A DNA stretch of 64,000 bases from assembly GCF_003063575.1 (NCBI RefSeq), contig NZ_NESC01000007.1:1-64000 (forward strand). The letters run 5' to 3'. The position numbers and the translations under genes are program-made. The notes beneath the pieces are model-generated. The model was given only the letters and a program-made list of their open reading frames with translations, had not been told where the DNA came from and searched no databases. Every line of letters starts with the position of its first letter. Position 1 is the first letter of the stretch. This document shows, in pieces, positions 42,667 through 56,249 of the stretch. This DNA is from Limnohabitans sp. Jir72 (lineage in GTDB: Bacteria; Pseudomonadota; Gammaproteobacteria; Burkholderiales; Burkholderiaceae_C).

Positions 42667-42764
42667 ACGGGGCATCCTTGGGCAGTGAGCGAAATACAGA
42701 ATGAATTGGCGCACTATAGCCAGCGTGACACATCCGGGCTGCCGCCCGCGCTACAGTGAAAGCC

Positions 42765-43442
42765 ATGAACACCCAGCCCTCGGCAGCCACCTTGGCAGCC
42801 ACCACCCTGATCGACAGCGACCACCCCGATGTGATCGCCTTGGCGCGCCAGCATGCGCAAGGTGCCAACGACCGCGAACGCGCTGCGGCGCTGTATCTGG
42901 CGGTGCGCGACCAGTTTCGTTACGACCCGTACCGCATCGACCTGTCGCCCCAGGGCATGCGCGCCAGCTCAGTCATTGCCCAGGGCTCGGGCTGGTGTGT
43001 GCCCAAAGCAGCCTTGATGGCGGCGGCTTGCCGCGCCGCCGGCCTGCATGCCCGGCTGGGTTATGCCGATGTGCGCAACCACCTGAGCACCGAGCGCTTG
43101 CGCCAAACCATGCAGACCGATGTGTTCATCTGGCACGGCTATGCCGACATCTGGCTGGACGGTCAATGGGTCAAGGCCACGCCGGCCTTCAACATCGAGC
43201 TGTGCGACAAGTTTGGCCTGTTGCCGCTGGAGTTTGATGGGCGAAACGATTCGATCTACCACCCGTTTGACAAGGCAGGCAACCGGCACATGGAATACGT
43301 GAACCAGCGCGGCACCTTTGACGACATGCCGCTGGCGCAAATCGTGGCCGATTTTCAAACCGTCTACATCGGCTGGATGGCCGAAAAAGCCCCCTTGAGC
43401 CAGGCCAGCTTTGAGCAGGATGTGGCGCGAGAAACGCGGTAA
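42765..43442 (+). CDS. Transglutaminase-like cysteine protease
   Basis: The 225-residue protein has the transglutaminase-like catalytic triad: Cys in GSGWCVPKAALMAAACRAAG, His and Asp in FIWHGYADIWLDGQWVKAT. It lacks a signal peptide. Bacterial members are proteases or peptidoglycan-related; its role is unknown. The gene diverges from the hydratase and ends just before the 91-bp repeat array. ATG 42765 is chosen; GTG 42756 is possible. Confidence 0.85.
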   Translation: MNTQPSAATLAATTLIDSDHPDVIALARQHAQGANDRERAAALYLAVRDQFRYDPYRIDLSPQGMRASSVIAQGSGWCVPKAALMAAACRAAGLHARLGYADVRNHLSTERLRQTMQTDVFIWHGYADIWLDGQWVKATPAFNIELCDKFGLLPLEFDGRNDSIYHPFDKAGNRHMEYVNQRGTFDDMPLAQIVADFQTVYIGWMAEKAPLSQASFEQDVARETR

Positions 43443-43556
43443 AGCAACACGCACTGGTTGTGCTGGACTCGATTGCGCTGGCTCTGGGGCATGGCCTGCA
43501 GCTGGGCATGCGGGTGTCAGACGCCGTGCGGCATTTGGGGGCCTGAGACCGCAAAC

Positions 43557-44104
43557 CATCGCCCACGGGGTGGGCTCCTACAAAAACCAGCATCTGCCTT
43601 TACGCGTCACCCCTGTGGGCGATTTCACGTCAAGCACCTTCGCTGGCCATCGCCCACGGGGTGGGCTCCTACAAAAACCAGCATCTGCCTTTACGCGTCA
43701 CCCCTGTGGGCGATTTCACGTCAAGCACCTTCGCTGGCCATCGCCCACGGGGTGGGCTCCTACAAAAACCAGCATCTGCCTTTACGCGTCACCCCTGTGG
43801 GCGATTTCACGTCAAGCACCTTCGCTGGCCATCGCCCACGGGGTGGGCTCCTACAAAAACCAGCATCTGCCTTTACGCGTCACCCCTGTGGGCGATTTCA
43901 CGTCAAGCACCTGCGGTGGCCATCGCCCACGGGGTGGGCTCCTACAAAAACCAGCGTCTGCCTTTACGCGTCACCCCTGTGGGCGATTTCACGTCAAGCA
44001 CCTTCGCTGGCCATCGCCCACGGGGTGGGCTCCTACAAAAAACCGGCGTCTCCCTGTAGGAGCCCACCCCTGTGGGCGATTTCACGTCAAGCACCTGCGC
44101 CGAG
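43557..44104. repeat. Six-unit 91-bp tandem array built from inverted REP elements
   Basis: Units start at 43557, 43648, 43739, 43830, 43921 and 44012. The first five are 91 bp, the first three are identical, the fourth differs at two bases near its end and the fifth at one. The sixth is 93 bp and retains a full-length second REP. Each unit opens with a reverse-oriented REP (ATCGCCCACGGGGTGGGC then TCCTAC) and closes with a partial forward REP (ACCCCTGTGGGCGAT). A decayed seventh start is at 44105. Confidence 0.93.
44056..44080 (+). repeat. Full-length REP element in the sixth array unit
   Basis: GTAG head, AGG-A spacer region, stem GCCCAC/GTGGGC around CCCT, then GAT. It pairs with the reverse REP opening the same unit, forming a REPIN; in units 1-5 its GTAG head and left stem arm have been lost. 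Confidence 0.85.
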
Positions 44105-44154
44105 CATCGCCCATGAGGTGAGTTCCTGCAAAACGACGTTTCGCCTGGCCTGTT

Positions 44155-45348
44155 TCAAAGCTGCACGGGCTTGGCCAGCGGCACCGATTCAAAGGCCACG
44201 CGGCTGGGCACATCGCAAGCCACCCACATGGCCGGAGGCTGGGTTTGCATGACGATGCCCGCCACGCTTTCGACGCGGCTTTCGGGTGGCACGCTGGGGT
44301 CGGGGCTGCGGCAGATGGACAAAAAGCCGTCGGACTCGTCGCGCAGGAAGCACTCCAGATCAGCCCGACCGATGGGGGTTTTCAAAGCGTGTTGGCCTGC
44401 AGTGCTCAGGCGGTTGTGGCTCGACAAACCCGGGCCCATGGGGGCTTGCTCAGCCAGCAGCGATTCGCACACAAAATGGTTGGTGTGCACCACCACGCCA
44501 TCGGTGGGCGTGACCTCGGCCCAGCCAGCAGGCGAGACCTCAAAGCAGGCGACCTGACCCTCGGCGTCGGCGCAGGGCACGTTGGAGGCCGCGCCAAAGC
44601 CCAGCCCCAAATCGGTTTGCAGGGCCTGCAAACGCTCGCGGGCGTGCGCCACTGAGCGGCAGTCCAGCAAATGCCGCAGCAGCACATGCACCGGCACGCC
44701 CAGGCGCGTGCCGTCGCGGTTGGAGCGCAAGATGTTCAGGCCCAGCGCAAAGCCCGATTGGTTGATGCCGATCTTGGCCAGCATGCCGGCCTCGGTCAGG
44801 GTGGTGATGCTTTGGCCGCTGGGGCCTTGGGAGTGCAGCACCACCAGCGCTTGGCGCTGGCGGCCCATCCAGTCCCAGTTTTGCGCCAGCCAGGCTTGGC
44901 CTGTCTGGCTGGCAGCCGCCGTCACGCCCATGGCGGTGCACTCGCCATCCTTCAAAGCGTCGTCCCAGGGCGCATCGGCCAACCAGTCGGGCAGGCCTGC
45001 TGCACGGTTGGCGGCCAGGGCGGCATGGGCCAATTGAGGCGTGTCCGTGAAAAACGTGGACGGCAAGATTTCGGTGCGGCAGTTCAGCGCCATCAAGCTG
45101 CCCAGGCTCTGGCCACTGCCTTGGGCCATGCCGCGCAGCTCGGCCATCAGATCCGCATCGACCTGTGCAATCACCTGCTCAAAGCGCATGGCGCGCTCGC
45201 AAGCGCTGGCCCAGTCGATGCCACAGGCGGCAAACAATCGGGCATAGGTGATGACGCTGTGCTGGATGCGGTCCTTGGCCTGCTGGCCATAAATTTGGCC
45301 GCGTTCGTGGGCCGAAGCCGAGCTCAGCGTGTCGATGCAAGGGAACAT
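44155..45348 (-). CDS. C45-family autoproteolytic acyltransferase/hydrolase
   Basis: The 397-residue protein is like acyl-CoA:6-aminopenicillanic acid acyltransferases (peptidase C45): the nucleophile Cys137 sits in DGECTAMGVTAAA, matching the family's DGCTT cleavage point, and is followed by LAQNWDWMGRQRQALVVLHSQG and FALGLNILRSNRDGTRLGVPVH. It lacks a signal peptide. The open frame continues upstream through REP elements, but the ATG at 45348 has a GGAGA site. The substrate is unknown. Confidence 0.85.
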   Translation of the reverse strand: MFPCIDTLSSASAHERGQIYGQQAKDRIQHSVITYARLFAACGIDWASACERAMRFEQVIAQVDADLMAELRGMAQGSGQSLGSLMALNCRTEILPSTFFTDTPQLAHAALAANRAAGLPDWLADAPWDDALKDGECTAMGVTAAASQTGQAWLAQNWDWMGRQRQALVVLHSQGPSGQSITTLTEAGMLAKIGINQSGFALGLNILRSNRDGTRLGVPVHVLLRHLLDCRSVAHARERLQALQTDLGLGFGAASNVPCADAEGQVACFEVSPAGWAEVTPTDGVVVHTNHFVCESLLAEQAPMGPGLSSHNRLSTAGQHALKTPIGRADLECFLRDESDGFLSICRSPDPSVPPESRVESVAGIVMQTQPPAMWVACDVPSRVAFESVPLAKPVQL

Positions 45349-45680
45349 GGGAAGGTCTCCAGAAATGGCTTGAACTGCGAATGAAGCGTGGCTTGTAGGA
45401 GCCCACCCCGTGGGCGATGGTTTTGAGACAGGTACACGCCCATCGCCCACAGGGTGTGCTCCTACAAAATCAGACCAGCGGCAGGTTTTTGAGGGGGTGT
45501 CCAATTCCATCGCCGACAGGGTGAGCTGCCTTGGCATCGGTTCAAGACCGAGTCTCCTGCCGACGACCGAACACGTCAACCTGGACACACGGACATTCGC
45601 CTTCGCGCTGGCACCTCGGTGACTGTGGGCTGCAGGCCGACGGGTTCATCATCAAATGCTGTTGAACTGGAGAGCCTGCC
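45349..45680. other. Divergent intergenic region with REP elements
   Basis: The 332 bp between the C45 gene (minus) and the MlrC gene (plus) hold one clear REPIN (45395-45465) and a decayed REP at about 45509-45530. No gene was seen. Promoters for both genes must lie here but I could not assign them. Confidence 0.6.
45395..45465. repeat. REPIN: forward and reverse REP pair
   Basis: A forward REP at 45395-45418 (GTAGGA, GCCCAC, CCC, GTGGGC, GAT) faces a reverse REP at 45442-45465 (ATCGCCCACAGGGTGTGC then TCCTAC) across a 23-bp spacer. Confidence 0.9.
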
Positions 45681-47183: not shown

Positions 47184-47223
47184 AAATCCGACAGCAGGCG
47201 ATTCGGTGGGTGGGCCTGCGGCC

Positions 47224-47345
47224 ATCGCCCACGGGGTGGGCTCCTACAAATGAAGGTAGAGGTCCACCGGGCATCGCCCACGGGGTGGGCTCCTACAAAT
47301 GAAGGTGGTGGGCCTGCGGGCATCGCCCACAGGGTGGGCTCCTAC
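47224..47345 (-). repeat. Three direct REP elements between convergent genes
   Basis: Reverse-oriented REPs at 47224-47247, 47273-47296 and 47322-47345 (each ATCGCCCAC, then GGGG or AGGG, TGGGC, TCCTAC), spaced by exactly 49 bp from start to start. They sit between the 3' ends of the convergent MlrC and monooxygenase genes and may act as transcription terminators. Confidence 0.92.
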
Positions 47346-47373
47346 AAATACCGGTAGACACAAGGACTTGCGC

Positions 47374-56175: not shown

Positions 56176-56249
56176 GTAAGAGCCCACCCCTGTGGGCGAT
56201 CAGCGTGGCACACGGCCTACAAACCATCGCCCACAGGGTGGGCTCCTAC
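56176..56249. repeat. REPIN: forward and reverse REP pair
   Basis: A forward REP at 56176-56200 (GTAAGA head variant, GCCCAC, CCCT, GTGGGC, GAT) and a reverse REP at 56226-56249 (ATCGCCCACAGGGTGGGC, TCCTAC), 25 bp apart, between the receptor and tsaD genes. The head carries GTAA instead of GTAG. Confidence 0.88.

Follow-up and report, generated by a model that had tools for sequence, protein, structure and literature searches.

In the freshwater bacterium Limnohabitans sp. Jir72, a 91-bp tandem array assembled from repetitive extragenic palindromic (REP) sequences lies between two convergent genes, and we consider it very probable that this array is a REP-bounded minisatellite that grew by local duplication between directly repeated REPs. 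It occupies positions 43556-44133 of a stretch of 64,000 nucleotides (contig NZ_NESC01000007.1, positions 1 to 64,000; hereafter, the window). Orthologous sites form a ladder, with one degenerate REP in two species, one unit or two units in other relatives, and six units in Jir72. A first-pass annotation, made from the sequence of the window, had proposed that the array grew out of a REP doublet forming hairpins (REPIN), and our data agree that it is built from REPIN parts. Arrays of this kind occur often in the Jir72 genome, and the present one clearly exemplifies a phenomenon that is already known.

Architecture of the array

Tandem Repeats Finder (TRF) analysis of the window revealed the array with a period of 91 bp, 6.3 copies, 95% matches, and a score of 1005, in line with the repeat noted at first pass. 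That annotation had ended the array at 44104, whereas its actual end is 44133; a seventh, degenerate reverse REP (44106-44129), outside the coordinates reported earlier, forms the right end. The array begins and ends at a REP, and its parts are as follows:

43556-44133: whole tandem array, six units plus the terminal reverse REP (TRF and unit table)
43558-43581, - strand: reverse REP 1, with an adjoining left flank also present in relatives (similar left junction in DM1, PBBC1, G3-2, and L. planktonicus; see below)
43649-43672, - strand: reverse REP 2 (this and the next four from the REP positions)
43740-43763, - strand: reverse REP 3
43831-43854, - strand: reverse REP 4
43922-43945, - strand: reverse REP 5
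44013-44036, - strand: reverse REP 6
43608-43672, + strand: head-mutated REPIN (half forward REP at 43608-43623, 25-bp loop, reverse REP 2), recurring every 91 bp up to 43972-44036
44056-44080, + strand: intact forward REP, an exact match to the REP pattern
44106-44129, - strand: terminal degenerate reverse REP, partner of the intact forward REP (unit table); the same variant REP lies between two units of DM1

When the array is cut at each reverse REP, units 1-5 measure 91 bp and unit 6 measures 93 bp. Units 1-3 are identical, and units 4 and 5 differ from them at 2 and 1 of 91 positions, respectively, which bears out the earlier description of five identical or nearly identical copies; the intact forward REP of unit 6 is likewise where that description placed it. 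The head of the forward REP had been regarded as missing from units 1-5. An intact head is indeed absent from them, but it is not simply missing: an alignment pairs the region with the intact head, showing substitutions and a 1-bp deletion, and the A-run preceding the head is shorter by another base.

REP family and REPIN register

The REPs of the array belong to the family GTAGGAGCCCACCCC(T)GTGGGCGAT, which is of the GTAG type. Across the Jir72 genome (3.69 Mb, 45 contigs), this pattern had 136 matches at no more than 3 mismatches, and the reversed control pattern had none. Further counts were made in a 599-kb sample comprising the window and 56 stretches (47 picked for earlier REP hits or a Y1 gene, and nine controls). 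Here, a looser REP pattern identified 253 REPs in 78 clusters, with a single REP in the nine control stretches (180 kb). The family therefore shows the features of GTAG superfamily REPs, i.e., a palindrome of 20-40 bp with GTAG at one end that is multicopy (136 matches vs 0) and extragenic (none of the 78 clusters lies inside a predicted gene).

Isolated dimers in the sample had GTAG on the outside in 27 of 33 cases, with a gap of 21-26 bp in 22 of those 27, and adjacent GTAG-outside pairs were separated by 24-26 bp in 57 of 74 cases. The usual REPIN of the Jir72 genome is a forward REP, ~25 bp, and a reverse REP. This REPIN straddles the unit borders drawn at first pass, so the REPIN register assumed there is revised here. 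In the GTAG-outside register, the array opens with a lone reverse REP, continues with five head-mutated REPINs, and closes with a last REPIN (44056-44129) in which the intact forward REP is joined by the degenerate reverse REP; we pair these two because local REPINs are GTAG-outside dimers with a short loop. RNA folding of 44052-44132, which covers this last REPIN, gave -39 kcal/mol (z -5.9). The dimer counts and this fold together display what defines a REPIN, namely, two inverted REPs, a short and fairly fixed spacing, hairpin potential, and dispersal as a unit. In addition, the array is an ordered REPIN cluster in the sense of tandem repeats of a REPIN with flanking sequence, although five of its six REPINs have a mutated forward head.

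Elsewhere in the window, an isolated complete REPIN (GTAG outside, 25-bp loop) lies between two genes at 56176-56249. We rejected a clustered regularly interspaced short palindromic repeats (CRISPR) array because the whole unit, including loop and linker, is repeated (this was judged on array structure; cas genes were not searched for). Nor do we claim that the linker of unit 6 is a decayed right flank, the fraction of shuffles as good being 0.049 for unit 6 and 0.76 for unit 1.

Orthologous sites in related genomes

A search with the acyltransferase-like gene to the right of the array matched 49 of 90 genus genomes (that of Jir72 included), and 30 loci were fetched, 29 of them from relatives. 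Five of the 29 carry a REP at the site, six have a REP-free spacer of 43-50 bp, 12 have ~0.9 kb more, and six could not be read in this way. The extra ~0.9 kb (12 of loci L128-L149; G and L numbers are our labels for genomes and loci) reads as an additional gene. The comparison with related genomes that the first-pass annotation had recommended thus revealed a variable number of units: zero, one, two, or six.

Limnohabitans sp. G3-2 (G025) and a further genome (G002) have one degenerate REP each at the orthologous site. One head-mutated unit and a terminal REP are found in the metagenome-assembled genome PBBC1 (G064), and Limnohabitans sp. DM1 (G062; L143, L237) has one head-mutated unit, then one intact-head unit and a terminal REP (TRF, 93 bp x 2.3). 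L. planktonicus II-D5 (G026) has a degenerate REP and, after it, an array (131 bp x 5.9) whose REP family is unrelated. In a shuffle test of the degenerate REPs, shuffles as good numbered 0 of 2000 for G002, 27 of 2000 for G025, and 0 of 2000 for G026, as against >1900 of 2000 for each of three relatives with a REP-free short spacer. In a second genome collection, judgment was based on the 20 of 33 loci in which the acyltransferase gene was found; of these, the sites of DM1, PBBC1, G3-2, and L. planktonicus had a REP. In all four, the first REP stood at an offset of 385.

An unrelated repeat at this site in a related strain had been named beforehand as evidence against a REPIN origin. Such a repeat is present in L. 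planktonicus, but it does not refute the REP origin because a decayed REP of the same family (the one with 0 of 2000 shuffles as good) adjoins it. Matches to the unrelated family (GTAGGTCGG, GTAG) number 1054 in L. planktonicus, where many of them lie within tandem arrays, as against 106 in DM1, 3 in PBBC1, and 0 in Jir72. Among 41 L. planktonicus stretches (L159 plus 40 from hits to this second family), we found 33 arrays, 32 of them with a GTAGGTCGG-like motif. A general nesting of the second family in old REPs of the first was also considered. The 41 stretches held 59 second-family clusters and only 10 fuzzy first-family hits; nine of these 10 lay within 120 bp of a second-family cluster, but eight had a third stem (CCAGC or CTAGC vs GCTGG), and general nesting is therefore not supported.

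REP arrays elsewhere in the genome

The first-pass annotation had called the array unusual, which is not supported. Defining an array by a TRF period of at least 33 and a score of at least 150, we counted 37 arrays in the 599-kb sample, most of which was REP-selected, with up to 9.2 copies and periods from 33 to 359 bp, in addition to the 33 in L. planktonicus mentioned above. A REP at no more than 7 edits is present in 35 of the 37, and the remaining two show REP halves in their sequence. Conversely, 34 of the 78 REP clusters overlap an array. The nine control stretches contained no array by this definition, and the window contained two, both of them REP arrays. The same definition applied to 250 kb of E. 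coli K-12 yielded one array, a REP array next to rayT.

Of the 70 ends of the 35 arrays with a REP, 28 lay no more than 6 bp from the matching REP edge, compared with 11.5 (standard deviation, 2.9) at random phase; when array phase was permuted, none of 2000 random placements reached 28. Ends at REP edges above chance favor duplication between directly repeated REPs. After the REPs, which make up 47% of the array sequence, were masked by 8-mers, only 15 of 666 array pairs shared sequence, and the non-REP part of the units is therefore mostly local DNA.

Probable growth of the array

A unit tree was made from seven units (units 1, 4, 5, and 6 of Jir72, two of DM1, and one of PBBC1). In this tree, DM1 unit 2 pairs with Jir72 unit 6 (0.91), and DM1 unit 1 is placed on the same side as Jir72 units 1, 4, and 5 (0.88). 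The two-unit array of DM1 suggests that both kinds of unit, head-mutated and intact, already existed before the expansion. The earlier proposal that unit 6 came first and gave rise to units 1-5 in this lineage is not supported, as DM1 shares the two-unit state and the single unit of PBBC1 is head-mutated. Its other half fares better: given the unit tree and the head-mutated unit of DM1, it is very likely that the head-mutated units were amplified after the mutation. The mutated unit of DM1 retains TGTA where the intact head has TGTAGG, and therefore the head changed stepwise. Judged on these sequences, a two-unit ancestor fits best, the first unit of which would later have grown from one copy to five.

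We propose the following course of events. A REPIN, mobilized by the REP-associated tyrosine transposase (RAYT) now encoded on contig C1, would have landed beside an older single REP and so brought two reverse REPs into direct orientation, ~91-93 bp apart. The stretch between these direct REPs may then have been duplicated by unequal recombination or replication slippage, perhaps aided by the REP hairpins, and in the Jir72 lineage the head-mutated unit would have risen from one copy to five. Such amplification would not need the transposase as soon as two direct REPs are present.

Several observations weigh against growth by this route or against the order given to it. The single unit of PBBC1 has a mutated head, and yet the unit tree places it among the intact-head units; its loop also resembles that of the intact units. 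The degenerate reverse REP lies between the units in DM1 and at the right end in Jir72, and from this placement and the mixed unit of PBBC1 it follows that exchange or contraction among units also occurred. Contraction of a longer array could yield the same ladder states. The order of the ladder would have to come from the gene tree, which is weak in its deeper part, has eight nodes below 50% support, and was used only for the pair of DM1 and L. planktonicus (100%). The six-unit count comes from a draft assembly only. The boundary test uses TRF ends, which may have been extended into any in-phase REP, and array ends refined by an x-drop boundary walk gave a mixed picture. Finally, Limnohabitans sp. 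2KL-51 (G007) has 75 REP matches and no close RAYT, which means that REP number and RAYT presence are not tightly linked.

RAYT genes and their possible role

The first-pass annotation had advised a search for a RAYT gene in the genome, and one is present. There are four Y1_Tnp matches in Jir72, and the three tested score as REP-associated tyrosine transposases. The one at C1:261522-261965 (148 amino acids) matches NCBIfam REP_Tyr_transpos (E 1.1e-40) and the solved TnpAREP 4er8 (E 1.9e-8), and its flanks contain seven REPs with the stem of the window's REP. All 20 fetched loci of this RAYT and its genus relatives (L094-L113, its own included) have GTAGGAG-type hairpins in their flanks. The stem CCCAC/GTGGG occurs at five of the 20 (L094, L095, L097, L099, and L103), and different stems occur at the others. 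A further point against a tight link between REP and RAYT is that the window's REP is absent from some genomes in which a close RAYT is present, e.g., G017, G068, and G080, which carry other stems beside their RAYTs (L098, L100, and L096). GTAGGAG-type hairpins were found at none of seven loci of the 240-260 amino acid Y1 class (L009, L115-L119, and L121), nor in the flanks of four other Y1 loci (L114, L120, L125, and L126). Locus L114 belongs to the 143-amino acid Y1 transposase of 2KL-51, whose flanks have no REP hairpin.

The presence of RAYT genes flanked by REPs raises the possibility that the RAYT itself makes the tandem copies, by cutting at a REP, after which replication or strand transfer would pass over the REPIN and the DNA flanking it again and again. 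Of the 37 sampled arrays, five do lie within ~8 kb at the C1 RAYT (C1:261.3-268.7 kb, L040), but the other 32 lie away from it. Moreover, approximately half of the array sequence is non-REP and mostly specific to its locus, periods range widely (33 to 359 bp), and the 75 REPs of 2KL-51 occur without a close RAYT. We consequently regard copying by the RAYT as unlikely.

Possible function of the array

Another explanation is that the array is a selected element resembling the bacterial interspersed mosaic element BIME-2, retained as a putative gyrase binder or as an insulator of convergent transcripts. E. coli BIME-2 likewise consists of tandem REP units. The E. coli REP sequence differs from GTAGGAGCCCACCCC(T)GTGGGCGAT, and by sequence the array is not a BIME-2. 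Selection would agree with the absence of sampled REP clusters from predicted genes (0 of 78), with the strong fold of the last REPIN, and with the scarcity of arrays in divergent spacers (1 of 33 arrays vs 21 of 105 control spacers, P 0.03; 7 of 76 for all clusters, P 0.06). The gene models behind these spacer counts were called by simple codon usage, and the window's own spacers are among the controls. On the other hand, convergent spacers are not enriched (7 of 33 arrays vs 17 of 105 controls, P 0.60), and the idea that arrays are favored between convergent genes is thus unsupported. No intrinsic terminator was found in 43300-44300, where 1.5 were expected by chance, and a readable but REP-free site occurs in 18 of the 29 relatives fetched. 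The L. planktonicus slot does hold an array of another REP family, but with 1054 matches to that family in the genome a co-located array is unsurprising. We therefore judge a selected, BIME-2-like function improbable.

Rfam searches at gathering thresholds returned no match in the window either. Given the unenriched convergent spacers and the lack of a terminator or an Rfam family, we take the array to be tolerated rather than selected; as far as the sequence permits a judgment, a passive hairpin-rich spacer between convergent genes would be its likeliest effect.

More speculatively, REP families may succeed each other in the same intergenic slots, with the resident family growing a REP-bounded array, such that the slot persists and not the sequence, and a structural role between transcripts would be served. 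L. planktonicus carries an array of the unrelated family at each of the two array sites of the window, with a significant old-REP remnant at one site and a weak remnant at the other. Coincidence is a fair explanation of these co-located arrays, because the other family is very dense in L. planktonicus, and we find succession within slots hard to credit.

Least plausible of all is an assembly artefact (a wrong copy number or misjoined repeats): the genome is a draft of 45 contigs and units 1-3 are identical, but units 4, 5, and 6 differ from the rest, the array ends join flanks present in relatives, and one- and two-unit versions occur in other assemblies, although the exact count could still be wrong.

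Neighboring genes and a second array

The genes on both sides of the array are convergent, as stated at first pass, and the following features surround it:

42756-43442, + strand: left neighbor, gene for a transglutaminase-like protein (PF01841, E 2.4e-16)
43443-43545, + strand: decayed remnant of a small open reading frame (ORF), between the left gene and the array, ~267 bp shorter (ORF-end motif at offset 77 vs 344 in nine relatives)
44155-45348, - strand: right neighbor, convergent, gene for an acyl-CoA:6-aminopenicillanic acid acyltransferase-like protein (PF03417, E 6.3e-22; gene model)
47212-47349, - strand: second REP array, 49-bp period x 2.8, with three reverse REPs, downstream of an M81-type peptidase gene (TRF and REP positions)

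The small ORF is open in relatives, and its Jir72 remnant directly adjoins the array. A single forward REP (45395-45418) lies in the divergent spacer between the acyltransferase-like and M81-type genes and would be translated if a longer ORF start were used.

PBBC1 also has the second array (50 bp x 2.6), and DM1 has a partial REP remnant at this site (0 of 2000 shuffles as good). In L. planktonicus, a weak remnant at the site precedes an array (105 bp x 6.7) that belongs to the other family; the REP remnant read there by eye was not borne out, with 228 of 2000 shuffles as good.

Relation to known systems

Tandem clusters of REPINs with flanking sequence, clusters beside RAYT genes, and REPs in inverted pairs are described for Pseudomonas fluorescens SBW25 in the relevant parts of PMC3116915. 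The same parts of that paper (Bertels and Rainey 2011) report 16 ordered REPIN clusters, the largest of which has four REPINs and one REP; set against our 37 TRF arrays in 599 kb, this allows a rough comparison only, as the criteria differ. A tandem cluster organization has been described for GTAG families generally (PMC3733652, Di Nocera and others 2013). The main text of PMC3733652 contains no occurrence of Limnohabitans, Acidovorax, Polaromonas, Comamonad-, or Burkholderiales, and its passages on GTAG superfamily clusters, unlike the Limnohabitans site, present no orthologous copy-number series. Both the association of RAYTs with REPs and the binding of gyrase by BIME-2 are covered in the pertinent sections of PMC2817692. 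Among the matches listed in our literature searches there was no report on Limnohabitans REPs, nor one on Limnohabitans together with RAYT, though one may exist.

Tandem clusters have been taken, in the part of PMC3116915 that deals with them, to indicate a second mechanism of cluster formation. The graded series in separate species, along with array ends at REP edges, points to direct REP-to-REP duplication and makes such duplication testable with ordinary strain collections. In addition, the RAYTs of the genus, with their differing adjacent REP stems, constitute a natural set for recognition studies.
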